NCBI RefSeq assembly: GCF_000093025.1
Contig: NC_014207.1
Coordinates: forward strand, 2,046,001 to 2,110,000
Direction of reading: 5' to 3'
DNA from: Methylotenera versatilis 301
Lineage (GTDB): Bacteria > Pseudomonadota > Gammaproteobacteria > Burkholderiales > Methylophilaceae
Length of the DNA: 64,000 nucleotides
The position numbers and the translations under genes are program-made. This document shows positions 22,032 to 41,415 of the stretch, one piece after another (the first letter of the stretch is position 1; each line of letters opens with the position of its first letter). The notes beneath the pieces were generated by a model that searched no databases, was not told where the DNA came from, and saw only the letters and a list, made by a program, of their open reading frames with translations.

Positions 22032-22233
22032 TTTTCACCTCCATCTCATAGCTCACCCTATGGAAGGGTAATTAAGCACGAGTTCATCCACTATATTAAA
22101 GCCTTCGCTCTTATTGATGTCTGTGCGGTAACACACCTTACATTCTGCTTCAATAGAGCCATATGCCATATTGCTGCCAAATGATTCATTTATGGTCTAT
22201 GGTGGGTTAATCTTGAGTTAATAAAATAAAGCG

Positions 22234-22335
22234 AACGTCTGATTTGGGTCGAATGTGTAAGTAAGTGAAGTCTGCTTTCAGATCTTCCAACAGCAGACTC
22301 TTGCCTTGAGAACCTTGGGCCCAAAGCAGTCATTC
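22234..22335. repeat. Dispersed intergenic repeat B, copy 2
   Basis: Related to 15739-15842. Contains GTCTGC (22270) and GCAGAC (about 22293), which can pair, and GGGCCCAAAGCAGTCATTC. It lies between the small ORFs and the lysR gene. Confidence 0.65.
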
Positions 22336-22357
22336 AAAAATAATGTAAATAGTCGTT

Positions 22358-23269: not shown

Positions 23270-23326
23270 CATCACCATCCGTAACAAAATAATCTGAAAC
23301 AATATTTATATACCAGTTTTATTGGT

Positions 23327-23346
23327 AGATTATACATAAATAATCT
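23327..23346. promoter_or_regulatory. LysR-type operator palindrome
   Basis: AGATTAT-N6-ATAATCT, a 20-bp dyad between the divergent lysR and yeiH genes, fits the T-N11-A type sites bound by LysR regulators. A half-site AATAATCTG also occurs at about 23288. Confidence 0.5.
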
Positions 23347-23419
23347 GTTTTATTTATTTATTGTGAGTCTGTAAAGTGCAACACATACTTTAACAACACA
23401 CTATTTAAGTGACTAAATC

Positions 23420-24460: not shown

Positions 24461-24521
24461 GTGCTAATAATCCTTAATACACACATAAATTTGTATAAAA
24501 TTAAATTTTAGGAGATACAGC

Positions 24522-25760: not shown

Positions 25761-25785
25761 ATATCAGATGTATAGAGGAAACACC

Positions 25786-26409
25786 ATGTTAAAAAATATG
25801 ACTACAAAATTTGTAATAGCAGCTTTGTTTCTTATATCTATTCAAGGAATAGCTGCACCAAGAAGCATAGAGCTGCCTGAAGAAACCGCTAAGTTTAAAG
25901 AATCTATTCATCCTGGCTACATCATTGCGCAACAAAAATGTAGTATTTGCCACTCAGCAGATTATATTAACCTGCAACCATCAGGCATGAATCTCAAACA
26001 ATGGACGGCTGAAGTCACTAAGATGCAACACGCATATGGCGCACCGATTACTGATGATGATATAAAAGTGATTGGTCAGTATCTGGCCACCACCTATGGC
26101 AACGAAAAGCTTGCAGCTATTACTACATCTGTGGCAACCACAACCCCAGTAGCCAGTGCTATCGATGTTAAAACTTTATTAGCTAATAATGCCTGCTTGG
26201 GCTGTCATGCCCTGTCACAAAAAATTGTTGGCCCCGCTTATCATGATGTAGCAGAACGCTATCGTAAAAATCCTAAAGCCTTAGAAACGGTGATGGCAAA
26301 CATCAAAGCCGGTGGCGCAAATAAATGGAGTGCAGTGCCGATGCCGCCGTTTCCAGCATTGACGGATGCAGAGTTAAAAGTATTAGCTCAATTTGTGCTA
26401 AGCCAATAA
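25786..26409 (+). CDS. sorB: Diheme-type cytochrome c subunit of sulfite dehydrogenase (SorB)
   Basis: A 207-residue exported protein with signal peptide ending IAAP, and two CxxCH heme sites: KCSICH (residues 52-56) and ACLGCH (137-141), with distal Met candidates such as AVPMPPFPAL. SorB of the well-known SorAB has a single heme, so the extra heme marks a variant; it presumably takes electrons from SorA. Start at 25786 has AGAGGAA. The longer frame from 25711 overlaps sorA and is not used. Confidence 0.8.
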   Translation: MLKNMTTKFVIAALFLISIQGIAAPRSIELPEETAKFKESIHPGYIIAQQKCSICHSADYINLQPSGMNLKQWTAEVTKMQHAYGAPITDDDIKVIGQYLATTYGNEKLAAITTSVATTTPVASAIDVKTLLANNACLGCHALSQKIVGPAYHDVAERYRKNPKALETVMANIKAGGANKWSAVPMPPFPALTDAELKVLAQFVLSQ

Positions 26410-26439
26410 TATCTAAATTTACAAAAAGGGAGTTTATAT

Positions 26440-26847
26440 ATGAGTGACGACACAGCAACCCACATCATTAAAGCTAAATCATTAGTATCTGATCCACGCA
26501 TATTTTTTGCAGCTGAGCGTACGCTCTTAGCGTGGGTGAGGTCTGGTTTAGCCGTGATGGCGCTGGGTTTGGTGATTGATAAGTTTGGCTTGTTATTATC
26601 AGTGTTAACCTCCTCTACAGTTAATCATCATCAGACTCATCAGGATATATCACATTATCTTGGCATCATATTAATATTGGTGGGAACACTTATTGTAATG
26701 GGCGCACAATATAATCATCATGTGTATTTACCAAGTTTGCCACCTGAGGATTTGCCAAAACAAGCTATCGTTCGACTAGATTGGTTTTTGACTTTTTCAA
26801 TTGCAACTATTGGGGTATTACTGACGATTTATCTGGTTGTTGCTTAA
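26440..26847 (+). CDS. DUF202 membrane protein (YidH family)
   Basis: A 135-residue inner-membrane protein with three helices and the DUF202 signature DPRIFFAAERTLLAWVRSGLA near residue 16-36. It is 30 bp after sorB and has RBS AGGGAG, so it is the last gene of the sulfite operon. Function in the family is uncertain. Confidence 0.75.
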   Translation: MSDDTATHIIKAKSLVSDPRIFFAAERTLLAWVRSGLAVMALGLVIDKFGLLLSVLTSSTVNHHQTHQDISHYLGIILILVGTLIVMGAQYNHHVYLPSLPPEDLPKQAIVRLDWFLTFSIATIGVLLTIYLVVA

Positions 26848-26857
26848 CTCTAATAAT

Positions 26858-27787
26858 TTAAGGAGTAAAGCAATCAAGGTCATTCGCAAACATAGTCTTA
26901 CCATTGAAAGAGTGGGAGATAACCTCTAGTGTTTGCGGTTCTTTGCCTAATGTACGAAGCATTCTGTGAGAAAGTACTAATTGTTTGATATTGGCTTCTA
27001 CAGCAATTTGACCAATCACAGAAGGTGGCATATGTAACTTTCGTTCAACACCGCTTGCTCCTTCAGGCACAGCGTTATGTGCAACTAATATATCAGCATC
27101 TTTTGCTAAGAGTTGTAGATTGCCGTTGCCGCCATTAGTATCACCACTAAAGACAATGCTTTTACCGCCAATATCAACTCGCCATGCTAATGCGGGAACG
27201 CTGCCATGCACGACATCTGTTGCAGTTGCTATTACGCCAGATTGGTTAAAAACTTCTTTAATTCTTTGGTTTTTAAACTCAACGTTATGTGCTTGAATGA
27301 CATAACTAGATTGGCTTGTTGTTAGAAAATCATTTAGATAACGGTAAGCGCCTTTTGTACCAAATAAATCTTGTATAAATTCAGTCGTACTTGGAAATAA
27401 TGTATTACCAGTTGGACCATACACTGGCAGTGGTTTTGAGCGATCTTCAAAATAAGAAGATTTAATGAGCGCAGGGAAATCCGCAGTGTGATCTACATGC
27501 AAATGTGTGAATAACACTACATATAAATCTGTCATGTTTGCGCCACTCTCCCCAAAACGCAAAGCACTGCCACCGCCACTATCAATCAACACGCGCGCCA
27601 TGCCATCCTGCCAAATGAGATAGCTGCTAGAAGCCCGCTTATCTTGCATTTCAGGGCCACCAGAACCAAGTACTTGTAACTCAATGCCATGTCCCGCACA
27701 ACTTGATGCAAAAGCTTCGTCGATTAAAAAGATGGTGGCAGTTAAGCATAAAAATATTTTGCTAACGAACTTAGAAGCATGTTTCAT
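26858..27787 (-). CDS. Exported metallo-beta-lactamase-fold hydrolase
   Basis: About 309 residues; signal peptide ending FAS, then the MBL motif THLHVDHTADF (Zn ligands), a later VFSGDTNGGN and a final histidine (LSHRML). The fold covers arylsulfatases, phosphodiesterases and similar hydrolases, so substrate cannot be named. It is convergent with the DUF202 gene (10 bp apart). Start at 27787 aligns the signal peptide; the upstream 32 codons lack support. Confidence 0.75.
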   Translation of the reverse strand: MKHASKFVSKIFLCLTATIFLIDEAFASSCAGHGIELQVLGSGGPEMQDKRASSSYLIWQDGMARVLIDSGGGSALRFGESGANMTDLYVVLFTHLHVDHTADFPALIKSSYFEDRSKPLPVYGPTGNTLFPSTTEFIQDLFGTKGAYRYLNDFLTTSQSSYVIQAHNVEFKNQRIKEVFNQSGVIATATDVVHGSVPALAWRVDIGGKSIVFSGDTNGGNGNLQLLAKDADILVAHNAVPEGASGVERKLHMPPSVIGQIAVEANIKQLVLSHRMLRTLGKEPQTLEVISHSFNGKTMFANDLDCFTP

Positions 27788-27872
27788 ATGTTTAATATCT
27801 AAAGTTGTATTAATAAATACATTAACCCAACAATAAAAATATAGATACTTGAAAAATTCTTGATGACTGCTT

Positions 27873-27962
27873 TGGGTCGGCATTGATGATTCTCAATGTC
27901 GGCTTTGAAGAAGTGTGATTATGAAGCCCAGTAGTAGACGGTCGTAAAAGTCACTCAGGGCC
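27873..27962. repeat. 90-bp dispersed repeat A, copy 2
   Basis: Nearly identical to 2642-2731. It lies 46 bp beyond the stop of intI and marks the outer left border of the integron. Confidence 0.85.
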
Positions 27963-28007
27963 CCAAGCGGAAGTTCGTAATGAACCTCCGCTAAGGTAAC
28001 TTATCAT

Positions 28008-28949
28008 TCAAAGCCTATCAAAAGGGCTCGTCACCATTTTTGTTGCTTGAATCACATGGGTATAAATCATGGTGGTTTGCAAACTACGATGCCCAAGTAA
28101 CAATTGAATTGTTCTAATGTCAGTACCGGCACTCAGTAAATGCGTAGCAAACGAATGCCGCAAGGTATGAACTGAAGCGTGCTTTCTAACCCCTGCTAGA
28201 TTTAATGCGGACTTAAATGCACGCTGTATCGTCGTATCTGACATATGCCAGCGCGCCAATTGGAATTCATTCTGCCATGGCCGTAGCACTTTAGAAGGAA
28301 ATACAAACTGCCATGCGATAGAGCGTGAGGCTGCAGGATATTTACGATAAAGTGCATTAGGCATTGCCGCGTAACCACCGCCTTTTGCAATATCTGCAGA
28401 ATGCAATTGTGCAACCATGACAAGGTGCTTTTGAAGTCGCTCAATTAATTGAGATGGAAGTAAGGTGGTTCTGTCCTTTCCGCCCTTGCCATCACGCACG
28501 GTCAAAGTCTTTGCACCGAAATCAATGTCTTTTACCCTCAAGCCAATGCATTCACTCACTCTTAAACCCGCGCCATAAAGTAATTGCGCCATGAGCTGAC
28601 ATGTTCCACTCATCACCTCGAAAGTTGCCTTTACTTCATCAGCAGTTAATACGACAGGCACACGATGCTGACGTTGAACGCGTTTTAAACCTGTCATAAG
28701 ACCTAAAGGCTTTTCAAGTACATCGTTATATAAAAACACAATAGCATTCAAGGCGATGGTTTGCGTAGATGCTGATACTTGTCGATCTCTGGCGAGATAA
28801 TTCAAGAACAGCTCAACTTCAGAAGAACCCATCAAATCAGGATGTCTTTTTTGATGAAAGAAGATGAACCTGCGTATCCAATGCACATAGGCTTCTTCGT
28901 TGCGTGGACTGAAATGACGCCTCCGGCAAACGGTGCGAACACGATCCAT
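28008..28949 (-). CDS. intI: Integron integrase (IntI)
   Basis: A 313-residue tyrosine recombinase that moves gene cassettes between attI and attC. The catalytic residues are visible: Arg130 (AGLRVSE), Lys near 155-158, His261 and Arg264 (HTLRHSF), His287 (LGHRS) and Tyr296 (IYTHV). Between the Arg and His boxes is the IntI-specific insertion ADIAKGGGYAAMPNALYRKYP (about 185-205), which separates IntI from XerC/D and phage integrases. It is transcribed away from attI, the usual arrangement. The sequence is complete. Confidence 0.92.
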   Translation of the reverse strand: MDRVRTVCRRRHFSPRNEEAYVHWIRRFIFFHQKRHPDLMGSSEVELFLNYLARDRQVSASTQTIALNAIVFLYNDVLEKPLGLMTGLKRVQRQHRVPVVLTADEVKATFEVMSGTCQLMAQLLYGAGLRVSECIGLRVKDIDFGAKTLTVRDGKGGKDRTTLLPSQLIERLQKHLVMVAQLHSADIAKGGGYAAMPNALYRKYPAASRSIAWQFVFPSKVLRPWQNEFQLARWHMSDTTIQRAFKSALNLAGVRKHASVHTLRHSFATHLLSAGTDIRTIQLLLGHRSLQTTMIYTHVIQATKMVTSPFDRL

Positions 28950-29043
28950 TAAACGTGGTGGATTAGCTGGTTGTTGACCCCATAAAGATAGCTCCTTTGT
29001 TGAGGTTTAAAAAGACTAAAGTGTACTAAACTTAAAACAAGTT

Positions 29044-29182
29044 GCGTCCGTACTTGCTATTTATTATTATACGGACAGAGCAAACACTAACTATAAGATT
29101 TAAAAAGAAAAATAACATGTCAAAATCAACATTCACAATATTATTATACGGACGCACGTGTCCGCTTAATAACTGTTAGGGC
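29044..29182 (+). other. attI recombination site and integrase-binding repeats
   Basis: Between intI and the first cassette, TACGGAC occurs in direct repeat (end of ATTATTATACGGAC at 29063-29076 and 29140-29153) and inverted form (GTCCGTA at 29046-29052), with GTCCGC at 29160. The core GTTAGGGC at 29175-29182 fits GTTRRRY and marks where cassette 1 joins. The repeats are candidate IntI binding sites, and the cassette promoter Pc should lie nearby but was not identified. Confidence 0.65.
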
Positions 29183-29187
29183 TACAG

Positions 29188-29517
29188 TTGAAAACGCTAA
29201 TGCTTATTTTTGTTGCTGGGCTATTGATAGCTTTAGGCTTAGCTGCTTGGCAATATTCGTTAGCACCTCAAGGCACTCTTTTATACACACCCGCTCCAGG
29301 CATCAAACCCAACTTCACTCCCTCATCGGCACTTGGCTTTTTTGTGGGAGTTCTTAGTTTGTGTGCCTTGTCTACCTTTGCCAGCTTGGTTAGTTTCGTT
29401 TGTGGGTTTGTAGCAAATCGCCGCTGGTTAGCCGTTGCAAAACAATCCATTATTTTGGCTGCTGGCTATGGGCTGTTTCTTGTGCTTACTATGTTCACAG
29501 AGAAGTTATGGCCCTAA
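29188..29517 (+). CDS. Integron cassette 1: small membrane protein
   Basis: 109 residues with two or three hydrophobic segments (LIFVAGLLIALGLAAWQYS; ALGFFVGVLSLCALSTFASL; IILAAGYGLFLVLTMF). No family recognised. It begins 13 bp after the attI core and its stop TAA lies inside the attC repeat (TGG CCC TAA), typical of a cassette. Start could be TTG 29188 or ATG 29200. Confidence 0.75.
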   Translation: MKTLMLIFVAGLLIALGLAAWQYSLAPQGTLLYTPAPGIKPNFTPSSALGFFVGVLSLCALSTFASLVSFVCGFVANRRWLAVAKQSIILAAGYGLFLVLTMFTEKLWP

Positions 29518-29572
29518 CCTATCATTCAAGCGGGACTGGCTTACAGCCAGCCCCTTAACTCAAACGTTAAAA
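29511..29572 (+). other. attC site of cassette 1
   Basis: A 62-bp site starting GCCCTAAC and ending at GTTAAAA (29566). Its centre, GGGACTGGCT/AGCCAGCCCC, pairs almost perfectly into the folded single-strand substrate recognised by IntI, with complementary outer arms. It separates cassette 1 from cassette 2. Confidence 0.85.
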
Positions 29573-29576
29573 CGAT

Positions 29577-29879
29577 ATGTCTCTAAATTGCCCGAGGTGC
29601 AAGAGTGCTGTAGGTTTTCTTCGATTTAAAGAGTCGTTTATCTGCTCACATTGTTCTGCCAAACTAATTGGTAATTATAACGGTGCATTTATTTGGACTG
29701 TGGGTCTGTCTTGGCTCGCAGACTTAGTTATTTATCCTGTGGTTTATTCAAATTTTGGTTCAAATTGGTGGCCTGGAGTGATTATTCGTATTGCACTTAG
29801 CACTTCAGCTTTTATAGGCTTCCTAGCAATACTGATCAGTAGTATGGGTACTATTGAATTGAGTAGTAAACAAGATTAA
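29577..29879 (+). CDS. Integron cassette 2: zinc-ribbon membrane protein
   Basis: 100 residues: an N-terminal zinc ribbon (CPRCKSAV, ICSHCSA; CxxC twice, spacing about 17) followed by two transmembrane segments (LSWLADLVIYPVVYS; IIRIALSTSAFIGFLAIL). Function unknown. It starts 4 bp after the attC end. Confidence 0.75.
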   Translation: MSLNCPRCKSAVGFLRFKESFICSHCSAKLIGNYNGAFIWTVGLSWLADLVIYPVVYSNFGSNWWPGVIIRIALSTSAFIGFLAILISSMGTIELSSKQD

Positions 29880-29902
29880 AACCGAGCTAATTGAAAGTTA
29901 AC

Positions 29903-30247
29903 ATGCCTTATATCTTTTTTTGTACTGTCTTACTTGTTTCAATGTTAATCATCATTGGAACATATATCATTTTGGAGAAAAAGTCTGCTGCTACATTCTT
30001 TGATGTTGCACTTTTCTTTGTTCCATTTTTTTTATGGTATGGTCTTGCACTTACAGGGCTTCGCCCTAAATCACTTGCGAATTTAGTTGAACCATTTGCT
30101 TTTGCTCCTATCATCGCAATTAGTTTACTAGTTAGGTCGTTTGTATTTAAGAAAATTTCTAATGTTGAGCGGTCACGTATTGCATTTTTTGTTGTAATAC
30201 TTATAGCAACGGCAATCTATTTCCTTGTACCAGCATTACCCGAATAG
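29903..30247 (+). CDS. Integron-associated membrane protein
   Basis: About 114 residues, four hydrophobic segments (FFCTVLLVSMLIIIGTYII; FDVALFFVPFFLWYGLAL; FAPIIAISLLVRSFVF; IAFFVVILIATAIYFLV). It follows cassette 2 by 23 bp with no attC between, so it is either a second gene in cassette 2 or a cassette whose attC has been lost. No attC was seen after its stop, where a merR-like relic begins. An upstream TTG start at 29891 is possible. Confidence 0.65.
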   Translation: MPYIFFCTVLLVSMLIIIGTYIILEKKSAATFFDVALFFVPFFLWYGLALTGLRPKSLANLVEPFAFAPIIAISLLVRSFVFKKISNVERSRIAFFVVILIATAIYFLVPALPE

Positions 30248-30283
30248 TGACTACGGTACTTCTCCATACACCAAGGTCGGCTA

Positions 30284-30361
30284 TGGGTCGGGAGTGACTG
30301 TTTTCGGGGTCAGCAATTTTACTTGTTGTTTAAGACCTTTCTTCAAGTTACTAGGTTGCCT
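30284..30361. repeat. 78-bp repeat, copy 2 (relic of merR 3' end)
   Basis: Corresponds to 1217-1294. On the minus strand it reads VRQPSNLKKGLK, matching the last residues of the MerR protein (VRQPSKLKKGLK), but the stop codon is changed and the frame upstream contains stops. It ends the integron array on its right side. Confidence 0.75.
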
Positions 30362-30663
30362 CACTCAACTTTCTCCAAGCATTAGGCGCCGTGCGCAAAG
30401 TCGTACTGGATTTGTGTAGAGCAGAGTCCCCAACCTTCAACTAGCCATTTGCTCTGTCTAGCAAGTAGTCATTAGCGTTCAGTGTGCGATTTCTGCTGAC
30501 ATGATAAAGCTCGGTGTTGGCTGCTGTTTTGAAGTTTTCGCAGCTAGGTTAAGTGCAGATAAACAATGCACATATGTTTCATATCTAGAAGCAACTCTCA
30601 AGCCCAAACTTTACAGCATATAGCATCCACCTTATACTGACTCCCCTTAATTGGGAGCAATTT
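30362..30663. other. Intergenic region with no clear gene
   Basis: About 300 bp between the merR relic and the DUF262 gene. GTTAAGT near 30549 matches the attC core pattern GTTRRRY but I could not build a paired attC arm around it. The promoter of the DUF262 pair should lie at the right end. Confidence 0.4.
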
Positions 30664-31800
30664 ATGTCAGAAAATGAGCAAACAACTTTAAAGAACAAGC
30701 TAGACTCAATTCAACAAAAAGCCCGAGAACGAACGGTTAAAACTCAAAATGTTGAGTATGACCTAGAGACTTTAATTAAAAGAATAGATTTAAAAACATT
30801 AAAATTAGATCCAGAGTATCAACGCCGTCACAGATGGTCGCCTGAAACTTCATCTCGACTTATTGAGAGTCTAATATTAAATATCCCAATACCAGTTATC
30901 TTTATATCGCAAGATATTGATGTTGATGATGAAGCTGAAATTTCCACTTCACGTTATACCGTAATTGACGGTCAACAGCGCCTTACAGCAATGTATGGCT
31001 TCCTAAAAGGTGAGTACAGCTTAGTTGGACTTCAAACTTTAGCTGAACTCAACGGATCTTTCTACAAAGACCTTCCTCCATTTTTAATTCGTAGATTAGA
31101 AGAGCGAACTATAAAATGTCTCAGAATAGATTCAACTGTAGATGCTCAAGTAAAGTTTGATATTTTTGAAAGATTAAATACTGGTTCAGTTAAGCTCGAA
31201 GCTCAAGAGTTAAGAAATGCTACTGCAAGAGGACCTTTTAATGAGCTCATAAAAGTATTGGCAGAATTTCCAGCATTTAGGGCTCTAATTCAAATCAAAG
31301 GTTCTAATCCTGAGGATAATCCTAAAGTACAAAAAATGGAGGATGCGGAATTAGTGCTAAGGTTTTTCGCTCTAAAGGAGGGGAAGTTTCGTCAACTAAA
31401 AAAAGGATTTAAAGATTTTTTAACTGATGCGCTTGTTGAGCTAAATAAACTTGATGATGCAACAAGAAATGGCCTAGCAGAAGAATTCAAGATTTATATA
31501 AACTTCCTGTTAAATTTTGCGGGAAATACGGCTTTCGCAAAGCTACGTTACGAAACTGGTGGTGTAAAACAGATGTCATCATTTAATGCTTCTGTATATG
31601 ACGCTGTATTAGTTGGCCTTTCGGAATCATACACCGCTTCTGATCTGCAGATTAACTCGGAAGCAATCGCTGCAAAGTTATCTGGCTACCAAACTCTATT
31701 CAATAATATTGACTTTTTTAATTCAGTTTCTGGCAGTGTAAATGACGCCGCGAAAGTCGCAACACGTATAGAAGCTATGATGGCCTATTTAAAAAGATGA
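30664..31800 (+). CDS. DUF262 domain protein (ParB/Srx-like, defence-associated)
   Basis: A 378-residue protein with the DUF262 hallmarks: DPEYQRRHRWSPETSSRLIESLILNIPIP (residues about 49-77) and VIDGQQRLTAMYGFL (100-114), the ParB-like fold found in GmrSD-type type IV restriction systems and other defence genes. It may bind or cleave DNA or use nucleotides. It lacks the DUF1524 HNH domain of GmrD. Its stop overlaps the start of the HEPN gene (ATGA), so both are translated together. Confidence 0.8.
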   Translation: MSENEQTTLKNKLDSIQQKARERTVKTQNVEYDLETLIKRIDLKTLKLDPEYQRRHRWSPETSSRLIESLILNIPIPVIFISQDIDVDDEAEISTSRYTVIDGQQRLTAMYGFLKGEYSLVGLQTLAELNGSFYKDLPPFLIRRLEERTIKCLRIDSTVDAQVKFDIFERLNTGSVKLEAQELRNATARGPFNELIKVLAEFPAFRALIQIKGSNPEDNPKVQKMEDAELVLRFFALKEGKFRQLKKGFKDFLTDALVELNKLDDATRNGLAEEFKIYINFLLNFAGNTAFAKLRYETGGVKQMSSFNASVYDAVLVGLSESYTASDLQINSEAIAAKLSGYQTLFNNIDFFNSVSGSVNDAAKVATRIEAMMAYLKR

Positions 31801-32606
31801 GTACGGCACTTTTTGAAATAGCTACCTCAATACCTCAAAGGATTAAAGAGCTAAATATACTAACAACTCATGCTGAATTTTGCCAAGTAGATAATGAAGA
31901 GCTTTACAACTCATTATGTAGAGCGAGTAGTGTTTTAATTGCTTCACATTTGGAAGGTTTTTTAAAAGAGCTTACAAACGGCTTAATTCAAGATCTTAAT
32001 TTTAATTTAGGTTCTTTTTCTAAGATGCCAACTGCAATACAAAGAACTTTTTGCAAAAAAATCGCTTTCTATGAAGGCATTCCTGATAAAGAGATTGAAG
32101 GCAGAGTAAGTCAACTACTGGATTTTTTTTCAAGAAACTCAGTACCAATTGACTTGAAAGCGTTTAATTATAAGCAAAATCAAAATAAGAACCCAAGTGC
32201 TTCATTTATAGATGGTTTATTCAGCCCTATGGGGATTAATTCAATAATTGATTCAATCGAGGGAAGTACTTTTGAGCAAGTGTTTGAAAATAACACTAGA
32301 ATTAATTTCATGTTATCTAGAGATATGTCTCGTTATAGGTCAAAACTTTATCACTACCCCTATGCATCGTTGCCTTCTAAATATGGATTTAATTTTAAGA
32401 ATGAAAGAAAAGTAAAAAAGGATAATTCAAGCAAATCTTTATGGCATACGTTTATTGAGGAAATATTAACAACTAGGCACAGCATAGCTCATGGGGATAC
32501 CATAAAAAACGACACAACAGCAGAAAGCCTAAAGTTTGACATAGTTAAACTTGAAATATTCATGCACAGTATGATGTATGCAACAGCTGCTTATTTTTCA
32601 AAATAG
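31797..32606 (+). CDS. HEPN-domain protein, partner of DUF262 gene
   Basis: A 269-residue protein with the HEPN RNase motif R-x4-H (TRHSIAHGD, Arg227 and His232) near the C-terminus, and an N-terminal helical part (ASSVLIASHLEGFLKELTNG) as in the MAE_28990/MAE_18760 HEPN family, which is often paired with DUF262. HEPN proteins usually cleave RNA in toxin-antitoxin or phage-defence settings. Overlap with the DUF262 gene implies a single functional unit; that it acts as a toxin is inferred. Confidence 0.7.
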   Translation: MSTALFEIATSIPQRIKELNILTTHAEFCQVDNEELYNSLCRASSVLIASHLEGFLKELTNGLIQDLNFNLGSFSKMPTAIQRTFCKKIAFYEGIPDKEIEGRVSQLLDFFSRNSVPIDLKAFNYKQNQNKNPSASFIDGLFSPMGINSIIDSIEGSTFEQVFENNTRINFMLSRDMSRYRSKLYHYPYASLPSKYGFNFKNERKVKKDNSSKSLWHTFIEEILTTRHSIAHGDTIKNDTTAESLKFDIVKLEIFMHSMMYATAAYFSK

Positions 32607-33135
32607 CATGTATTTAGGTCGAGTAAACTTCAATCGTGGTTTATGTTCTTAAACACCTCCTACGGCGCAATGAAGTCATCTTTCTATCATGAATATTGTT
32701 CTATCAAGAAAGCTAAACTTAACTAGATCTTCTAGGTGTTTTGAATGCTTTATAGTGGCCGTCTTTCACATTCATGCATGGATATTTTGGAGCGGCTTAT
32801 GGTGGCTTTATTCAAAAACAATAATTACCGGCTCATTTAGCGATAATACGCAATCGTCTCCTTAAGGTCGATTTTTGCCCCTTGATGTATTAATTTGACT
32901 AGCATAAAGCTGATCGTCAGAAACAAAATCAACACAGTCTAATAAGTTTTTTTCTGTTGGTTTTTAGTCAAATCAATCATAGGAATCGGATACCATATAA
33001 ATCAGTTAGACTAGTTGTACTCTCTACCCTCAATTTACATATAAGATAGCATTCGCTATTTGATGCCTTCTTATACTTAACTGAGAGAGTGATAAAAACT
33101 AAAAATTAGGTAGATGGATTTTTAAGGATTGCAAA
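32607..33135. other. Intergenic region, no gene found
   Basis: About 530 bp, AT-rich, several short frames only. The promoter of the antitoxin gene at 33136 is expected near its right end. Confidence 0.4.
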
Positions 33136-33345
33136 ATGACAACAAAATCAGAGATACAACTTCCTATCGACGAATTGATAGCACTTGCTATTGAAACATT
33201 TGGCTCTAAAACTATGGCTGATGCATGGCTCAAAAAAGAAAACTTTGTTTTAGGTGCAACCCCAATTTCAATGGCTGAATCCGATGCTGGACTTACAGAG
33301 GTTAAAAAAATTTTAAGTGCTATAAGTTATGGTGGAGTAGTTTAA
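33136..33345 (+). CDS. DUF2384 (MbcA/ParS/Xre) antitoxin-like protein
   Basis: 69 residues ending AIETFGSKTMADAWLKKENF then GLTEVKKILSAISYGGVV, the toxin-binding DUF2384 domain. Full-length antitoxins carry an additional N-terminal DNA-binding domain that is missing here, and no RES-type toxin gene is adjacent. The RBS AAGGA and ATG are good. It may be an orphan antitoxin or a regulator. Confidence 0.75.
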   Translation: MTTKSEIQLPIDELIALAIETFGSKTMADAWLKKENFVLGATPISMAESDAGLTEVKKILSAISYGGVV

Positions 33346-33474
33346 CTTTCAATAATTAGAAAGTGTCAGCTATCGGCCGAGGTTGTGTCACAACGTCTCA
33401 ATATTTTTGAATTATGTCGAATTTAATCGGCTATCTTAAGTTGCGATTAGAATTTGTAAAGCAGGATTAAAGCT

Positions 33475-34998
33475 ATGGCCCCTCAGTACAATATTGATAT
33501 AAGTCATCTGCCTCCAAGTGAGGTAGAGATTTTCTATCAACGTTATTTGATTGAAAAAGCAGCAGATCTAGTCAAGCAGTACAACCTTGCACCCAAGCTA
33601 TCCAATAGGCTTCATAGTTTATTTCCTGAAGAACTGGCGCATAAGCAATGTGAGTATTGTTCTAGTAACATTTACTCTCCACGATTAAAAAAGTCCGAAA
33701 TTCATATTGATAAAAAAGTTAGAACCGGAAAATGTGAGGTATGTGGGCATAATCATTTGCTGACTTTAGATTTAGAGGATTTTGCCAACACCAGATTAAA
33801 ATTTAATTGTAACTGCCCCAGTTGCAAAGAAGCCAGAGAAGCCAAGGCAAAGATAGAAAGAGATGGATTGGCTGCTAAAGCGAAAGAAAAACAAGACAAA
33901 CTTGTAAAGCGCCTCCGCGATGAGTTTGATGCTAATGTAGCATTCCACTTCTTGCCGTTCACTGAAGAAACTGAATCCTTCCATCTAACCGACGTAACTA
34001 TGTTGATGTCTCTTCTATTTGCCCGATGGTCAAATATAGTGGGTGGCAACAAAGATGATTATATAGCCTCAATTGATAGTGGAAATTTGCCAGTATATGC
34101 TTGCGACACGGACATTAGAGAACATCCTATTTCAACTTGTATAAAAAATCATTTAATTAGGTTTGATCTAAGTCGCTGTTACTTTAATTACTTTGAAGTT
34201 GAAGATGACAATCCGATTACTTATTACCCTTTCAAAATTCCTTTCCAACCTAATTTTATTAATGAAGATGGAGATGAATTAACCAGTAAGCAGGTTTACG
34301 AATGGTTGTCACGTAAATTTAGTGATGGTTACTTGTATAGTGATTGGAAAGATGAATTGCTTGATGTTTGGATAAACCTAGGAGTTGCTGAATGTATTGA
34401 ATACGCTAAAAGTAAAGCCGAAGAATACAACTTCAGATTTGAGTATGAGGCTAAAGTTAGCGAAATCATTCGTGATTTATTACATCGCCACAGCGTTTCA
34501 GAATGTTTTTATTTTATTTCGACTGCATATTGGAACGCAGCAGCATTTATACAAAGCAATAAAGCTACATGCCGTAAACATGCGGAAAACACGGTGCCAG
34601 GAAAGATTCTCTCATTAGCTAACTCTGGCAAATCGAAGTTTTGGGACAGACCAACAAGTCTACCGCGTTCTGCATACAGCCTTATGCTATTTGATGTCAT
34701 TCTTAATGCTAAAAACGACGCAGGTTTTAATTTATGTCCTGGCAAAAATTATCAAGACTTGTTAGGCAAAGCCAAAGTTGAATGGCCAGAAACTATTGAT
34801 GAACCTATTTCAATAAACATTACTGGAGAAGGTGGTGTTTATGACTTCTTTGGTTGCTTGCCTGACGCTACTTTTAAAGAGTCTAATGATTCCGTTATTG
34901 ATCAGTTGACTAATCTTGCGTGGATAGCCAGAGCCTTAGGATTGAAAAAGGCAGCGGAAGTGATTAATGACAAGCTATTAGTAGATGATGGGGATTAA
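33475..34998 (+). CDS. Large hypothetical protein with zinc-ribbon-like cysteines
   Basis: 507 residues, not recognised. Near the N-terminus are three cysteine pairs: CEYCSS, CEVCGH and CNCPSC (about residues 59-117), likely one or two zinc ribbons, then a charged coiled region (AKAKIERDGLAAKAKEKQDK) and a largely helical C-terminal part. No signal peptide. It lies between an antitoxin-like gene and the recombinase operon, so a mobile-element or defence role is possible, but there is no motif that shows it. Confidence 0.6.
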   Translation: MAPQYNIDISHLPPSEVEIFYQRYLIEKAADLVKQYNLAPKLSNRLHSLFPEELAHKQCEYCSSNIYSPRLKKSEIHIDKKVRTGKCEVCGHNHLLTLDLEDFANTRLKFNCNCPSCKEAREAKAKIERDGLAAKAKEKQDKLVKRLRDEFDANVAFHFLPFTEETESFHLTDVTMLMSLLFARWSNIVGGNKDDYIASIDSGNLPVYACDTDIREHPISTCIKNHLIRFDLSRCYFNYFEVEDDNPITYYPFKIPFQPNFINEDGDELTSKQVYEWLSRKFSDGYLYSDWKDELLDVWINLGVAECIEYAKSKAEEYNFRFEYEAKVSEIIRDLLHRHSVSECFYFISTAYWNAAAFIQSNKATCRKHAENTVPGKILSLANSGKSKFWDRPTSLPRSAYSLMLFDVILNAKNDAGFNLCPGKNYQDLLGKAKVEWPETIDEPISINITGEGGVYDFFGCLPDATFKESNDSVIDQLTNLAWIARALGLKKAAEVINDKLLVDDGD

Positions 34999-35216
34999 TA
35001 AGGTGAATACGTTGAGAAATATTAAGCAGGGATTCAGATTTTTGATCATAGAAAAAGAAATCCACCCATTTTTGATTTTTTGTTTAAATGATTAAGGGAT
35101 AAAAATGAGGTGTTGATTAACAAAAGCGCAAAGACGCTTGTGGCAGAATTCAAGAATTAAAAAATCACTTCTAAATGTTTTTTATTCAGGATAATTATCC
35201 AAGGAAAAACGGCGCG

Positions 35217-35717
35217 TTAGGACTTTGTCCTTTCTGAGGGGCGCTTCGGTTGCATCGCTGGGCTTTCTTTAGTCGAATGTCGATTAACAGGCGGCAAGGG
35301 CTTATCCAACGCTCTACGCAGAGCATCTCGATGGCTCCTCCACTCCTCCTCCATTATTTTGTGGTCGAGGCGATTTCCATTGTAAAGCCAACGACTGAAC
35401 TGCTCTAAGAGATTGTGGTTTTCTCGTTTAAGCCTCGAAATTTCAGCCTCCAGCGCAGCAATGCGCGCTTCGGTCGGTGTCTTTGGGTGATCTGCCCCAG
35501 ATAGCTTTTTCTTGCGATACTGGAAGGCATCGCTGATACGCGCATGTCTGTCCAGTGCCTGCCGGGTATACTTGGTTCTAAACTGCTTTTGAAGTTGCTC
35601 TATAAGAAGATCCCAAGTGAGCTTAGGCTGATTCCACCCATCAAGTAAAAGTGCGATTCGCTCAATGTTTTCGTCGGTCAGATTTGGGGCACGATCACGC
35701 CGGATATTAGTTGTCAT
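35217..35717 (-). CDS. ginD: GinD-like small accessory protein of the island
   Basis: 166 residues: N-terminal helix-turn-helix-like part (LTDENIERIALLLDGW, LTWDLLIEQLQKQF, YTRQALDRHARI), then a coiled coil (ARIAALEAEISRLKRENHNLLEQFSRW), then a basic Pro-rich tail. It overlaps the ginC stop and resembles TnpC of Tn554-type elements in position and coiled-coil design. It probably helps direct the recombinases. Start at 35717 (MTTNIRR) chosen over a longer frame that lies inside ginC. Confidence 0.7.
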   Translation of the reverse strand: MTTNIRRDRAPNLTDENIERIALLLDGWNQPKLTWDLLIEQLQKQFRTKYTRQALDRHARISDAFQYRKKKLSGADHPKTPTEARIAALEAEISRLKRENHNLLEQFSRWLYNGNRLDHKIMEEEWRSHRDALRRALDKPLPPVNRHSTKESPAMQPKRPSERTKS

Positions 35718-37851
35718 CGGGAAACTCCTTTTTAGCGCCTCTTGGTGTGACTGCAAGTAGACTTGTTATTTCTTCCATAGACTTTATACCCGCTGATACT
35801 GGTTTTATTGGTATCACTCGACGCGCCATTGCATCCCTAATCCTGTTTGGCGTGCTGATGTTCAATCGGATAGGTGTACCGTCTTGAATTTCCGCGCTAT
35901 CAAAAATATCCTTGAGATTTTTTAGGAAACCTTCGCGCTGGCTATGGACTCTGAACCATTCTGCCGCACCTAGCATTTCTGAATCGCAGTCCCTGCGTGC
36001 CGCTTCCGTCAATGCCAGAGAGTCAGCATATAGAATCTCCAACGCACTCCTAGTACGCTCATCTCCCTTTATACAAATCATTTCAGAACACTGGATACAA
36101 TTTTCATGAAATTGACATGGTGCCTGCATATAGTCATGGAGGCAGTAGCCCAGAAAACTGAGGTGGGCGGTAATCTTCTCCACTGCACCGAACTGATCAC
36201 GCCGGATAAAGATGCGATTGTTGATGTTACCAAATGGGTGCGTATCACTGTGAAAGCCCAGTCGAACCTCCAACTTGTGTAGTTTGTCATCGACTGAGAC
36301 ATGGTCGTAAACAGCGTTTTGCGATACGCTCTTGCGCCCTGACCAGAGGGCGATTTCCTGTTCAGTAAGTACACCCTCCCGACGTACCAGCGTATTTAGA
36401 TAGTGGCGCATCTGGTGGGTGGTAAGAGACAGAGCCCCGCCATGATCATCCTTGTAGCCATGCTGATCGAAGATCGATAAGCCGCGACTTCCTGATTGCA
36501 CCTTAAGCGCTGATGCAATCATACTGTATGTGACAGTCTGGAACATTACCTGTATAAAGCCGGTTTTATACCCAGCAAACTCCTGATTCCGTATCACACA
36601 CAGGGCTTCACTGTACTTCATGTTTGTTTTAGCATCCATGACTGGGAAGCCTTTGGGTAAGAGTCGCAGGATTGACTGCTCGATATCTGCAAATGCTACA
36701 GTCGAATTTACTCCTCTTTGCAAACACGGCACGTGGTTATCTCGCAGGAACTTTGCGACACGCTTGCCTTCTTGGTGATATTTATCCAGCATTCGCACCT
36801 CACCACCATAAAGAATGGCACGCACCTCTCGTCGATTGAGTATGGTTTGATGACGCAAGTATTCTAGATGTGAGGGCAAGTATATCCGGTTAGGGTTTGC
36901 CTCGTACCACAGAGCCAACTCGCGTCCCGGCTCTGTGAGTCGGTATAATCGGTCATGGGCGCGCACGGCAATCTCGCGCATCGAGGGCACCACATTCTTG
37001 AGTAGCGGTGGCGCGCCTTTAGCCGGACGCCAGCGCTTGCTCACCCCTTGCTCTCCAGTCTCGGGATCTGTCCATGGCGAAAGCAAGTCAGCTTGGGAAT
37101 ACAATAATTCAATCGATCTATCCGGCGAACAGAGCATCAATGCCACTATACTGGTGACAAATGTTGTGCAAAAATCGGTATCGTCACGCTGGAACAGTTC
37201 GGCACACGCCTCGATTGCTCGGGGATTTGGCAGTTTTTTTGCACGTAAGGCATCAAACGCTGGGCCTAGCCGAATACGATCACTTGATTTTGATTGTTGA
37301 ATTGGTGATGCCCAGTATTCCGGCATAGTCACCAACTCATTCGACACCATCGCCTGCCAGATAACTTCCAATTGAGATGACAACCTAGGAGCAGATTCTA
37401 ATCGCCATTCATGCTGTATGATCTCACACGCCTTATCTAGTACAGAGATCGACACCTCGCTAGGATCAGTTGCCCCGCTCGCTTCCAATGCCTCGAAAAG
37501 TGCATCAAGGGCGGCATTCCTCGTCTTTATGCCAGTCGTGGGCCGTGTCAGGTACAAATGAACCTGCATTGCCTTGGCAAAATTGCGGAACAGATCAGGG
37601 TGTAATTGGTTATCAGGAATAAACGAGGCCTTTCCATACCCCACAGAGTACCGCCGTGGATTGTAGCTTCGGCGTGCAAAATAAAGGAAACCTTTGACGC
37701 CTTTGTTAATAACTCCTTCTAAAGGCCACGCATCATCATCGAATGGAAACTCCCCCTTTCCCCATGCACCCATAGCACGTTTTTTAGTTATGAAAGCATC
37801 AAGATTGGCGTTTGCATCCTGAGTCGCTCTAGGAATCAGCATCGTGGTCAT
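35707..37851 (-). CDS. ginC: GinC-like large tyrosine recombinase
   Basis: 714 residues. The recombinase signature is near residues 475-530: LTTHQMRHYLNTLVRREG (H-x-x-R), ALWSGRKSVSQNAVYDH (Trp/Arg and nucleophile Tyr). A Cys-rich segment CLHDYMQAPCQFHENCIQCSEMIC follows. The start at 37851 overlaps the ginB stop (ATGA). It is comparable to TnpB of Tn554 and GinC. Complete. Confidence 0.78.
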   Translation of the reverse strand: MTTMLIPRATQDANANLDAFITKKRAMGAWGKGEFPFDDDAWPLEGVINKGVKGFLYFARRSYNPRRYSVGYGKASFIPDNQLHPDLFRNFAKAMQVHLYLTRPTTGIKTRNAALDALFEALEASGATDPSEVSISVLDKACEIIQHEWRLESAPRLSSQLEVIWQAMVSNELVTMPEYWASPIQQSKSSDRIRLGPAFDALRAKKLPNPRAIEACAELFQRDDTDFCTTFVTSIVALMLCSPDRSIELLYSQADLLSPWTDPETGEQGVSKRWRPAKGAPPLLKNVVPSMREIAVRAHDRLYRLTEPGRELALWYEANPNRIYLPSHLEYLRHQTILNRREVRAILYGGEVRMLDKYHQEGKRVAKFLRDNHVPCLQRGVNSTVAFADIEQSILRLLPKGFPVMDAKTNMKYSEALCVIRNQEFAGYKTGFIQVMFQTVTYSMIASALKVQSGSRGLSIFDQHGYKDDHGGALSLTTHQMRHYLNTLVRREGVLTEQEIALWSGRKSVSQNAVYDHVSVDDKLHKLEVRLGFHSDTHPFGNINNRIFIRRDQFGAVEKITAHLSFLGYCLHDYMQAPCQFHENCIQCSEMICIKGDERTRSALEILYADSLALTEAARRDCDSEMLGAAEWFRVHSQREGFLKNLKDIFDSAEIQDGTPIRLNISTPNRIRDAMARRVIPIKPVSAGIKSMEEITSLLAVTPRGAKKEFPDDN

Positions 37852-39395
37852 ACAGCCTCTTGTCCAAGTATGTCTCGGCACCGTAAAACAATCTGGGCGC
37901 AGCCGAGAATCGCATGATCCCGAATTTTTGCAATACGCTCATCGACTTCCATACGTTGTTCGCGATCTGCCAGCATTCGATCAAGCACAGCCTCGTGATC
38001 AGCATCAAGCCACGGTTCGAAACTTCTGCAACCTGCGTAGCAAGAGATGGGGCGCAACAAACCACACTGGCTGCAACTTGAACAACTTGCCAGCATCTTT
38101 AAATTACCATACTCATCCAACCGAAGATCTGGAATGCGACTAACAGATATGGGTCGTGTTGCTTCAGCCTCATTGCTAAGGATACGCAACTGCTCATCAA
38201 AAGCTCGCGCTAGGGGCGCCATCTGGAATGCAATCTTTTTACTAAAATTAGCCCGAATACGGTCAGTGATCTCGAAATACACCTTCACATTTTTAGCGTC
38301 ACGGTGCCCCATCAGATGGGCAAGTGTAAAGATATCGATGCCCTCATCAGCGCCGCGCTGGGCGAAACTACGCCTGAAACGCACAGCCGACCCAGGTATG
38401 TTCTCCCCCCCCAAGCGCACCGAATAGGCCTCAATTTTATTCATGGTTTTTATTATTCGTTTTGTCATGATGAGGTCAGTAGTGTGATACGCAAGCCCGG
38501 GAACATAGCTCCTAGTTGCAAAGTCTGATGACTCTTCTGGAAAGAGGGGAGCATCCCCAGTGTCGGACAGCAGCAAAGAAAATGCCGCTTTTATCGCTTC
38601 ACAGTGGTCCCACAGCACTTCACCAGTCGTTGGCTCCAAGGGGAAACTGCGAAGCTCGTCTCGGACTCCCTGACCTTTCCCCTTAATTAAGGGCACTCGC
38701 AGGATAACGCGACCATACTTATCCTTGCTAACATCGCAGCATTTGATGAGTGCCAATTGTCCTGGACGTATACCCAGCAGTGCAATAATCCGGAGAGCTA
38801 GCGCACGATTCAGTTCAACGTCTCCGCTTTCTAGGCCATGATTAATGCCTTCTAATAATGCTTCGAACTCTTGGTCGTCGAAGGGTCCTTTTCGCGGATC
38901 CTTAATGGACACTGCCACACCAATATCACCTTGCTTACAGATTGGGTAATTGTGTACCATTTCTGTGGACATACCTGGATAATGTCGCCGCGCCCAACCT
39001 TGATAGAACGATCGATTAGCCGCCCCTCGCTTCTCCGCACTCTGCGAACTAAGCACCCATTGTGCGAAATCTTCAAAGCTTAACTCATCGATAGCAGACT
39101 CTCGCCGAGCCTTCAAGAAACGCAGCAAGTTAACTGTATCATTGAAAGATCTTTGAACCGAGTTTCCAGTAAGATTTATTGTGCAGTCAATCAGCGCTTG
39201 CTTGAAACCATGAAGAAACTTAGGGGTAACTTCAGGTAGCAACGTGAAATTACAACTGACATCCTTGCCGATAGCCTTGTACTTCCAGTGGTCCTGCCTT
39301 GAATCGAACACGGCTCCATCTCTGGATTTAACCGCTTCTGGCAGGGGTTGGTCTACAATCTGAGCAAGCCATTCCTTATGAAAATGATCTTTCAC
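37848..39395 (-). CDS. ginB: GinB-like tyrosine recombinase
   Basis: 515 residues with LALRIIALLGIRPGQLALI (catalytic Arg), SAVRFRRSFAQRGADEG (Arg of the HxxR box; the His is replaced), LAHLMGHRDAKNVKVYFEIT (His/Tyr). A C-terminal Cys cluster (CSSCSQCGLLRPISCYAGC) may bind zinc. It lies 94 bp after ginA. Confidence 0.8.
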   Translation of the reverse strand: MKDHFHKEWLAQIVDQPLPEAVKSRDGAVFDSRQDHWKYKAIGKDVSCNFTLLPEVTPKFLHGFKQALIDCTINLTGNSVQRSFNDTVNLLRFLKARRESAIDELSFEDFAQWVLSSQSAEKRGAANRSFYQGWARRHYPGMSTEMVHNYPICKQGDIGVAVSIKDPRKGPFDDQEFEALLEGINHGLESGDVELNRALALRIIALLGIRPGQLALIKCCDVSKDKYGRVILRVPLIKGKGQGVRDELRSFPLEPTTGEVLWDHCEAIKAAFSLLLSDTGDAPLFPEESSDFATRSYVPGLAYHTTDLIMTKRIIKTMNKIEAYSVRLGGENIPGSAVRFRRSFAQRGADEGIDIFTLAHLMGHRDAKNVKVYFEITDRIRANFSKKIAFQMAPLARAFDEQLRILSNEAEATRPISVSRIPDLRLDEYGNLKMLASCSSCSQCGLLRPISCYAGCRSFEPWLDADHEAVLDRMLADREQRMEVDERIAKIRDHAILGCAQIVLRCRDILGQEAV

Positions 39396-39489
39396 CTAGA
39401 ATAATCTCCAATCAAAATCCTATATTAAGTAGATCAACAAACAATAGTTTTTCTGGTGGTCATCTATGTTCGAGAATCGCTTGTGCAAA

Positions 39490-40779
39490 TCATTCTGCAC
39501 CATCCGTGGAATTTTGTTTCCGTATGCGGATGGGTGCTGCCTTAGCTTGTAATCGAAGAGAGCTATCGTATGACTGCTCGTTGGCAAACTGGCGTGTATA
39601 GTAAGTTGGCATCTTACTTCTATTGCTCCAGCCACCTAACGTGCACAACTCCATTTCGATTTGTTCGATGCCTGCTCCTTCGGTATAACGTTGCCGTGCA
39701 TGATTGCTTGCCCAAGTGTGTCGCAACAAATGTGGATGGATATTAGCAAGCGATGGAATCTCGCGCAGGGACCTCAGTATGTAGTTTATTGAGCTGTGAT
39801 CAAGAGGTTTGCCACCTTCTGACACAATTAGGTATTGATGTCGGCCTTTCACCTTCCTGTGTCTTAGCACCTGATACTCCTTAAGCAGACGCAATATCCT
39901 ATCACCGAGAGGAATCTTGTATTCACCACGTTTGAGTCCTGGCTGCACCGTGCGCGAGTCTTCGGGGTCATCAGGACGACGTAGCATTGAAATACGTCCA
40001 GTATGGTGGTCTATATCAGGCACTTTGATACCGAGGATCCCGCCGCGTCGAGGTCCGCAGGCGAGAAACAACTCCACAATAAGCTGATTGCGGACACGAA
40101 TAAACCTGTCGTCTTTCCATGGATTGCGTGGGTCAATCTGTTGAATCACTTCAAGTAGCAAGGCTTGCTGATCTTCAGTCAATCCTTTAGGTTCACCAAG
40201 CCCTGTTCCATCGCGAATGTTCGTGGTTTTGGATTCGATGTACTTATCGATTTCGTCGCGAAGAATTGCATGGGAAATCTTGGCTTGTCCCCGTGACCGC
40301 ATGATTTGTGATTCTATACGCCACCAGAAATACTCACGAATGAATTGAAGCCGCAGTGCCTTAGTCCTTCCAGTCACTTCCAACTGTTGCTGGATAAGTA
40401 GCTTTGAACGGAAATTTTCTAGTTTTAAAACTTTAGAGCGCTTTTGGAAGGATGAATAATCGTCGCCTTTCTTATTATTGAAAGGTTTAATTAATTCAGC
40501 AGGCAAACCCATCTGCTCAATAAGATGATCAATTTCCGACAAGCTTAACCACTCACCACGAGCCAAACGCGAAGTTAGATCTTGTGCTAATGGAAGCGCG
40601 CGATACAAAACCAAGACAGCTCTAAGCTTAGTGGAAATAGTGTTGGACGCCATTCCTTTGGGACGTAGTTTCTCAAGAACCCACAGAGATGACCACCAAT
40701 CAGGAAGTCCGTGTTCATCGACGAGCAATGAGTGACGTTCTCCGGACTTCAGTATCAACTCAACAACTCGTAAAGTCAT
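39490..40779 (-). CDS. ginA: GinA-like tyrosine recombinase
   Basis: 429 residues with ACGPRRGGILGIKVPDID (catalytic Arg), HPHLLRHTWASNHARQ (H-x-x-R) and LGGWSNRSKMPTYYTRQFAN (Trp box and Tyr). First gene of the recombinase operon; its start is 157 bp from the recJ junction, where its promoter and the island-end sequence must lie. A typical strand-exchange recombinase, complete. Confidence 0.82.
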   Translation of the reverse strand: MTLRVVELILKSGERHSLLVDEHGLPDWWSSLWVLEKLRPKGMASNTISTKLRAVLVLYRALPLAQDLTSRLARGEWLSLSEIDHLIEQMGLPAELIKPFNNKKGDDYSSFQKRSKVLKLENFRSKLLIQQQLEVTGRTKALRLQFIREYFWWRIESQIMRSRGQAKISHAILRDEIDKYIESKTTNIRDGTGLGEPKGLTEDQQALLLEVIQQIDPRNPWKDDRFIRVRNQLIVELFLACGPRRGGILGIKVPDIDHHTGRISMLRRPDDPEDSRTVQPGLKRGEYKIPLGDRILRLLKEYQVLRHRKVKGRHQYLIVSEGGKPLDHSSINYILRSLREIPSLANIHPHLLRHTWASNHARQRYTEGAGIEQIEMELCTLGGWSNRSKMPTYYTRQFANEQSYDSSLRLQAKAAPIRIRKQNSTDGAE

Positions 40780-40896
40780 ATTTAGTTACAAAATATATGA
40801 TTCAATAATATCTGTATACTACCCTAAAAAAAACTGGAGCGTAAATAAAATAAAAATCTAGATGAGTCCTTTCCTATTCAACACACTAAGTAAAAA

Positions 40897-41415
40897 CTAA
40901 CAAAGTTGTTTACAATTCTCACCCATTTCCACAGATTGATCAGTAATCAGCACCTGTATGCCTAACGCATTCGCTGCCGCTACCCCTTCTACACTGGCGA
41001 TACCGTTATCAACAGTAATAATGACATCTGGGTTTTGAGTAGCTGCTAGCGCTACAATTTCTGGCGTTAATCCGTAACCGTACTCAAAGCGATTCGGCAC
41101 TAAAAAATCGACCGTTGCACCGAAGGCTTTTAATCCCTTCACGGCAACCGCCGTTGCGGTGGCACCATCAGCGTCGTAATCACCAATCACCAGTAGCTTT
41201 TTATTGGCTTGAATCGCATCAGCCAATAGCTTTGCCATGGCTACGTTATTGGTCAGCATATTGGGAGGCAACAGATTGCTTAAATGAATACTTAGTTGAT
41301 TTGCATCGCTAATGCCGCGTGCCGCTAATAATCGCGCCATCAGTGAGGATGCGCCTGATGCTTGCAAAGCCTGCGCTGCTTGAGATGGAATATTACGTTG
41401 TACAATTTTGGTCAT
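40897..41415 (-). pseudogene. recJ: recJ, 5' part, broken by island insertion at its DHH motif
   Basis: Single-strand 5'-3' exonuclease. The first 160 residues are a good RecJ N-terminus (SSLMARLLAARGI; LLVIGDYDADGATATAVAV; VPNRFEYGYGLTP; VIITVDNGIASVEG). The normal LITDHH is replaced after LITD by QSVEMGENCKQLC and a stop: only the first part of the DHH motif is left. The break falls near 40937, and the remaining sequence belongs to the island. The distal two thirds of RecJ, including most catalytic residues, is absent from the window. The product should be inactive. Confidence 0.9.

Follow-up and report, generated by a model that had tools for sequence, protein, structure and literature searches.

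What becomes of a conserved repair gene when a mobile island lodges in its catalytic motif, and how can the island afford such a landing site? The question is raised by a stretch of 64,000 nucleotides from Methylotenera versatilis 301 (the window, meaning this stretch at its full length; C1:2046001-2110000, where C1 is the single 3,059,871-bp contig of the genome under study, G000), in which recJ is split by an island of about 49.5 kb that is of the type known as GInts. With a probability of roughly 0.78, we read the comparative evidence as follows: the island inserted at a specific site in the DHH motif, the most conserved stretch of recJ, and broke the gene, a divergent RecJ homolog carried on the island (RecJ2) most likely takes over, and islands that break ttcA and carry a second TtcA (TtcA2) follow the same plan.

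The native recJ gene reads on the minus strand from window position 41415 and is normal through the residues LITD; a CAA codon then stands in the place of the CAC or CAT of native recJ. Profile matches are confined to the portion of RecJ before this break (positions 17-163 of 577 in the NCBIfam profile and 1-70 of 125 in Pfam DHH). The features that define the split are these:

40937..41415, minus strand: 5' portion of native recJ, ending with the shared core ATCA (40937-40940), which falls at the first His codon of DHH
40927..40935, minus strand: TCTGTGGAA, the terminal inverted repeat on the gin side of the island, an exact 9-bp inverted match
1..40936: in-window part of the 49.5-kb island, comprising the gin operon and cargo
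C1:2037403-2037411, beyond the window: partner inverted repeat TTCCACAGA at the far end of the island
C1:2036180-2037391, beyond the window, minus strand (the same as the 5' part): 3' part of native recJ, which reaches to about 2037396

When the flanks are joined at the shared 4-bp core ATCA, they form one open recJ frame of 564 codons that runs through LITDHHLPG; a GInt-type island sits precisely within recJ, at the DHH motif. Because the chromosome is closed in a single contig, the split is not a contig-end artefact, and an assembly artefact was likewise ruled out for a second genome, G121, in which the entire island lies on one contig. Beside the repeats, the sequence is CTGATTACT-gATCAa on the gin side and aATCAc-CATTTGCC at the far end, with ATCA as the common core. 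Compared as direct repeats, the two ends share the identical 4-bp core and have a best 11-nt match of 7/11; GInts, as described in the available text of PMC5385486, are flanked by imperfect direct repeats 10-17 nt long, carry from 2.5 kb to 70 kb or more of cargo, and are AT-rich over a short stretch at the 3' end. The size of the present island falls inside that range, and its far end is AT-rich, the 374 bp from the core to RecJ2 having 25.7% GC, compared with 41% for the island.

At the opposite end, an operon of four genes adjoins the 5' part of recJ:

39490..40779, minus strand: ginA-like tyrosine recombinase, 429 amino acids (Pfam Phage_integrase, 2.4e-16)
37848..39395, minus strand: ginB-like tyrosine recombinase, 515 amino acids (NCBIfam NF041502 integrase_1, 291 bits, below the cut-off of 350)
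35707..37881, minus strand: ginC-like protein, 724 amino acids (assigned by layout, relatives, and alignment)
35217..35756, minus strand: ginD-like small coiled-coil-like protein, about 178 amino acids

Three recombinase-type proteins followed by a small coiled-coil-like protein at one island end constitute the ginABCD layout. By the definition in PMC5385486, in the part available, GinA and GinB have the catalytic Arg, His, and Tyr residues, and GinC lacks the first Arg. In our alignments, R244, R353-H354, and Y394 of GinA were invariant in 10/10 rows, Y373 of GinB was invariant with R210, R339, R341, and H364 nearly so, and R255, H489, R492, R516, and Y525 of GinC were invariant over eight rows. 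The GinC, GinB, and GinA proteins of G000 are 30-34% identical to those of most ssb operons aligned, and 20-27% identical to those of two others. Membership in the GinA, GinB, and GinC families is supported by layout, signature residues, and an identity of about 30-36% to operons at ssb, a GInt site reported in the available text of PMC5385486. A RIT element was considered and rejected: such elements have three recombinases of about 315-410 amino acids, all with the catalytic tyrosine (PMC10214605, in the part available), and here the proteins have 429, 515, and 724 amino acids and are joined by a fourth, small one.

An earlier note, made from the window, had described recJ as normal to LITD and then split at the first His codon of DHH, with an adjacent ginABCD-type operon and the rest of recJ lying beyond the window. 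The frame, the CAA codon, and the truncated profile matches confirm the split; the operon is present (429, 515, and 724 amino acids plus the 178-residue coiled-coil-like protein, window 40779 to 35217, minus strand); and extension to the left located the minus-strand remainder of recJ. Profile searches gave Phage_integrase for the 429-residue protein, a match to integrase_1 below its cut-off for the 515-residue protein, and no Pfam or NCBIfam family at 0.001 for either the 724- or the 178-residue protein.

The gene that would compensate for the broken one lies at the far end of the same island:

C1:2037774-2039549 (L003:11774-13549), beyond the window, plus strand: RecJ2, 591 amino acids, at the far island end

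RecJ2 is placed between the 3' part of recJ and the remaining island, with its start codon toward the boundary. Its Pfam domains each score above cut-off (DHH, 57 bits; DHHA1, 28 bits; RecJ_OB, 77 bits), and it falls short of the curated RecJ equivalog cut-offs (TIGR00644, 346 vs 396.9 bits; NF008290, 249 vs 900 bits). A RecJ2 profile aligned with the solved RecJ 8y30 over 44-576, the DxD, DHH, AD, and GGH motifs included, and identity to native RecJ is about 32%; judged by its sequence, RecJ2 is a divergent RecJ-like protein. A DHH search of the G000 genome returned RecJ2 and the broken native recJ and no others, so RecJ2 is the sole complete RecJ of G000. That the insertion kills a repair exonuclease, as the earlier note had held, is right for the native gene, which is broken, but the cell is probably not left without RecJ, because the island carries this intact divergent homolog; an insertion leaving a dead recJ alone was dropped as an explanation once RecJ2 had been found. 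The same note had named an intact second recJ, with the fragment as an old duplicate, as a refutation, and this applies by half: a second intact RecJ does exist, but it falls in a clade apart from native RecJ, and the fragment is the native gene. In the tree, in which long branches were flagged, the RecJ2 sequences of five genomes group together (95/90), separate from native RecJ (100/100), and relatives occur in a few other bacteria and on plasmids. An origin of RecJ2 as a copy of native recJ was rejected on the strength of this separation (100/100, long branches flagged) and of identities of about 30-34%.

To what extent this arrangement recurs was examined in 187 genomes of the family; the results of the RecJ2 search were sorted by score, and our counts are drawn from the matches listed. 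Among these, RecJ2 occurs at 83-84% identity in G121, G140, and G182 and at 64% in G160, with native RecJ, at about 33%, as the next best match. In the first three of these genomes, RecJ2 again lies at an island end within a split recJ. G121 has on one contig the 3' part of recJ, a gin-type operon (440, 508, 821, and 122 amino acids), metal-efflux cargo, RecJ2, and the 5' part of recJ; its insertion falls between IVGD and YDADG. G140 and G182 share one site, between GP and RLNAAGR. In G140, the 5' part of recJ is on contig 49 and is followed by a different operon, while the 3' part and RecJ2 are on contig 22; in G182, the RecJ2 end of the island alone is visible, the gin end being absent from the data. 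RecJ2 lies at the boundary opposite the operon in all three cases with both ends known and reads inward in 4/4, and the joined native recJ frames are open in the three genomes tested.

A native RecJ query matched 118 of the 121 genomes that are at least 90% complete, 113 of them at near full length. Island-split recJ genes account for G000, G121, and G140, and broken or partial matches for G150 and G153; native recJ was not detected in G023, G076, and G102. Within this set, RecJ2 is found, among the matches listed, in exactly the three genomes with island-split recJ and in no genome with an intact recJ. A scan of contigs for RecJ2 gave 10 loci, four of which are those of G121, G182, G160, and G140; next to the RecJ2-like gene of the remaining six, searches turned up no fragment of native recJ (open reading frames of at least 90 amino acids at all six, tblastn at five, L068 not among them). 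Among viral contigs, 66 pattern matches included no relative of RecJ2. Separately, G177 carries on contigs C6 and C7 three RecJ-type genes that are 57, 44, and 40% identical to the native query.

A second target, used by another GInt lineage, shows the same arrangement. In six genomes (G110, G115, G145, G079, G140, and G126), a gin operon lies beside about the first 46 codons of ttcA, with the remainder of the gene elsewhere, and an intact TtcA2 of 281 amino acids adjoins ginD; 6/6 genomes with TtcA2 thus have a split native ttcA. The insertion separates SGGK from DS in the PP-loop (SGGKDS), and all seven 5' junctions of ttcA examined, in seven genomes, fall at this codon. The choice of a highly conserved motif, which the earlier note had seen at DHH, is repeated at two further recJ sites and in ttcA. 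In G110, the island ends are the inverted repeats TATTAGCACAAC and GTTATGCTAATA around the core AAAGA, and the best 11-nt match between the ends, compared as direct repeats, is 7/11. TtcA2 is 62-65% identical to native TtcA of these six genomes and of five island-free comparison genomes, whereas five native ttcA genes are mutually 86-99% identical. Over 843/843 bases, TtcA2 is identical in G110, G145, G079, and G140, which span two genera, so the ttcA island moved recently. The ginC gene of the G126 ttcA island (L086:6096-8519) is in two pieces, with open reading frames of 364 and 435 amino acids, and this island may therefore be immobile.

Islands with the same replacement gene differ in their integration machinery: a single RecJ2 family goes with three or more such modules and with three sites in recJ. 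Between G000 and G121, GinC, GinB, and GinA are 19, 19, and 18% identical, respectively. In a GinB tree with long branches flagged, G000 groups with GInts at ssb (97/97) and G121 falls outside, so gin operons settled on recJ on two or more occasions. The recJ-island module of G140 has no detectable similarity to gin proteins:

L147:2116-9517 (G140, contig C49): operon encoding proteins of 612, 786, 206, and 132 amino acids, with a RecD2-like helicase adjoining

Three of these four proteins gave no convincing family, and the fourth gave a VPA1267 match below cut-off (41.5 bits; cut-off, 90). The 786-residue protein has no profile similarity to GinC and no relatives in 299 genomes of the order; the 612-residue protein is a putative tyrosine recombinase, read by eye from the stretch LLSHRNLATTDAYL. 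Matches to ginC in 16 genomes of the family were located at recJ (two), at ttcA (six), and at or within about 3 kb of ssb (seven), and one (G139, C341) was unplaced. The ttcA island L133 of G115 and the recJ island L052-L053 of G121 have metal-efflux genes in common, at 88-100% amino-acid identity, an exchange of cargo between islands with different targets.

Both replacement genes are under strong purifying selection and appear to be maintained as working proteins, as judged by Nei-Gojobori estimates, in which the larger dS values are near saturation: the four island copies of RecJ2 have dN of 0.033-0.115 and dS of 0.26-1.97, and nonidentical pairs of TtcA2 have dN of 0.018-0.036 and dS of 0.69-1.57. 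We also compared the 24-base target windows. TtcA2 is 33-42% identical there to the native G109 gene, placing it in the 1st-6th percentile of windows, and the target core AAAGA has become GCTGA. For RecJ2, identity at the target windows is 42-58% (32nd-90th percentile), which is not unusual for the gene and weighs against the proposal of a replacement shaped to escape insertion. The ttcA case thus supports avoidance by divergence, the recJ case general divergence only, and special recoding of RecJ2 at target sites is overall unsupported by these percentiles. As a single observation, RecJ2 of G000 has GACCAC where the other three copies have GATCAT.

We propose that the gin recombinases would join a circular island to a short core within a conserved catalytic motif, by a chemistry presumed from that of GInts; the insertion itself is evident from the sequence. 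Native recJ is split and not eroded, as the joined reading frame shows, so that exact excision would restore it. RecJ2, much diverged in its DNA and perhaps a poor target, would supply RecJ activity; the cell might then depend on the island, barring exact excision, and the island would be stabilized. In its widest form, the idea is that of selfish islands whose recombinases seek out those codons of a housekeeping gene that are most conserved; the island breaks the gene and brings a foreign substitute too diverged to be a good target, with the rescue gene as a portable module tied to the target gene rather than to the recombinase lineage and the host becoming dependent; for this wider claim, we judge the case to be evenly balanced. 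Were it true, it would explain how an island can afford to land in a motif on which catalysis by a housekeeping enzyme depends: the substitute pays the cost, and, as codons of catalytic motifs vary little between species, the site is widely available. It would also provide a natural counterpart of engineered cleave-and-rescue designs, as well as a way for foreign homologs to displace core genes, one possible reading of G160. For annotation, a split core gene may not equal a lost function. Duplicated target genes beside other islands merit a second look; the available text of PMC5385486 mentions a ribonucleotide reductase gene that is duplicated and has GInts at its end.

Several points weigh against this proposal. 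The whole case rests on comparative data, and recJ and ttcA are nonessential in E. coli, making the benefit of replacing them uncertain. There are four recJ cases in all. In one of them, G182, the gin end is missing; another, G140, is a draft assembly in which contamination is estimated at 6% and the two halves of recJ are on two contigs. G160 has a solo RecJ2-like gene (64%), with native recJ undetected at 87% completeness; in this genome (L061, Methylotenera oryzisoli), the gene sits among chromosomal genes, and it is possibly the end state of a completed replacement, or something else. G138 and G139 have a split ttcA, and TtcA2 is absent from their assemblies, in which the islands are cut by contig ends: the G139 contig ends within a ginA identical over 240/240 residues to that of G110, and the G138 contig opens with island genes whose starts match those of G115. 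Finally, all 12 GInts found outside the family, among 399 genomes of the order and 377 of the class, lack a replacement within the approximately 10 kb read on each side, a distance that would miss one as far from the operon as RecJ2. Of the seven that could be placed, six lie by ssb and one beside a guaA-like gene (identified by eye); none of the 12 showed a target homolog within about 10 kb. As a general rule for GInts, insertion with replacement is unsupported by these 12.

Other explanations were weighed against the same data. RecJ2 might work for the island, by processing single-stranded ends as the element integrates or transfers, with the link to recJ as a by-product. RecJ2-like genes (38-39% identical) do occur on plasmids, beside RusA, HU, or RdgC in the two regions read, without insertion in recJ, and SEs, which are relatives of GInts, are hypothesized to use single-stranded circles (PMC10214605, in the part available). 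Yet RecJ2 is limited in the family to G000, G121, G140, G182, and, at 64%, G160 (among the matches listed), and it is missing wherever a gin operon lies at ssb or ttcA, apart from G140, which also has a recJ island; moreover, the matching part in ttcA islands is played by TtcA2, a PP-loop tRNA-modification enzyme with no obvious role in DNA movement. We consider such a service role improbable, though it is the strongest of the competitors. That an ordinary GInt acquired host-like genes at random, which happen to be RecJ and TtcA homologs, would fit the diverse cargo known in GInts (PMC5385486, in the part available) and the exchange of metal-efflux genes (88-100% identical) between the G115 ttcA island and the G121 recJ island. 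Coincidence of this kind is quite unlikely, given that in all 10 islands, from nine genomes (four recJ, six ttcA), the homolog corresponds to the gene that was broken, and that RecJ2 has the same boundary place and orientation in 4/4 islands and, among the matches listed, occurs in none of the intact-recJ genomes of the 121. An old gene replacement, with RecJ2 as a resident paralog and the recJ fragments as decaying relics, could point to the solitary gene of G160, but the joined native frames are uninterrupted in 3/3 genomes tested, the native G000 RecJ branch is short, roughly equal to the branch of G142, an intact neighbor, and within the genus RecJ2 occurs in G000, G121, and G140 only (among the matches listed); we regard this as very unlikely.

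Replacement of recJ by an island-borne homolog remains our preferred reading. GInts are already known, and we present the element as a GInt variant in which the strategy of inserting and replacing is the new point. With the GInts of PMC5385486, as far as its available text describes them, the island shares the four-gene operon at one end, which encodes two recognizable tyrosine recombinases along with a GinC-like protein of large size and a small GinD-like one, as well as large cargo, an AT-rich opposite end, site-specific insertion, and sister operons at ssb. It differs in breaking its gene deep in a coding motif, whereas insertion there is mostly at gene ends or between genes, with targets probably not fully inactivated, and in carrying a replacement gene, none being described for GInts in that text. 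SEs (PMC10214605) likewise end in inverted repeats with a short spacer and encode recombinase-type proteins of both ordinary and large size together with a coiled-coil partner, but their gene order is intA-tfp-intB-srap, and the available text mentions no recJ or ttcA site and no replacement gene. Across the openly licensed PMC literature, in the text available, no account was found of a core gene, recJ and ttcA included, being split by an island that brings a complete substitute with it.

Islands and prophages at the ends of housekeeping genes such as dusA and trmE resemble the present case in having a conserved target and in not leaving the cell deficient. The genes prfC and icd are also targets of end-of-gene integration, and the integrating elements rebuild the gene end. 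With such integrators, the junction preserves or rebuilds the end of the target gene itself, whereas here the gene is split in its middle and a whole foreign gene lies elsewhere on the island. Synthetic cleave-and-rescue and home-and-rescue gene drives similarly disrupt an essential gene and supply a recoded copy that rescues it; these drives, however, are engineered eukaryotic systems based on Cas nucleases, and the present one is a natural bacterial recombinase element.

The remaining cargo of the island in G000 includes the sulfite dehydrogenase SorA, YeiH, an MBL hydrolase, an integron integrase, a DGQHR-like protein, and transposase-like genes. The integron integrase (window 28008-28949, minus strand) matches TIGR02249 with 397 bits against a cut-off of 265 and has small open reading frames beyond it on the opposite strand; a search for attC near it gave one doubtful attC-like pair and nothing more. 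A second integrase-like gene (413 amino acids, named by eye; L003:5877-7118, minus strand) lies immediately to the left of the recJ locus, among phage- or plasmid-like neighbors.

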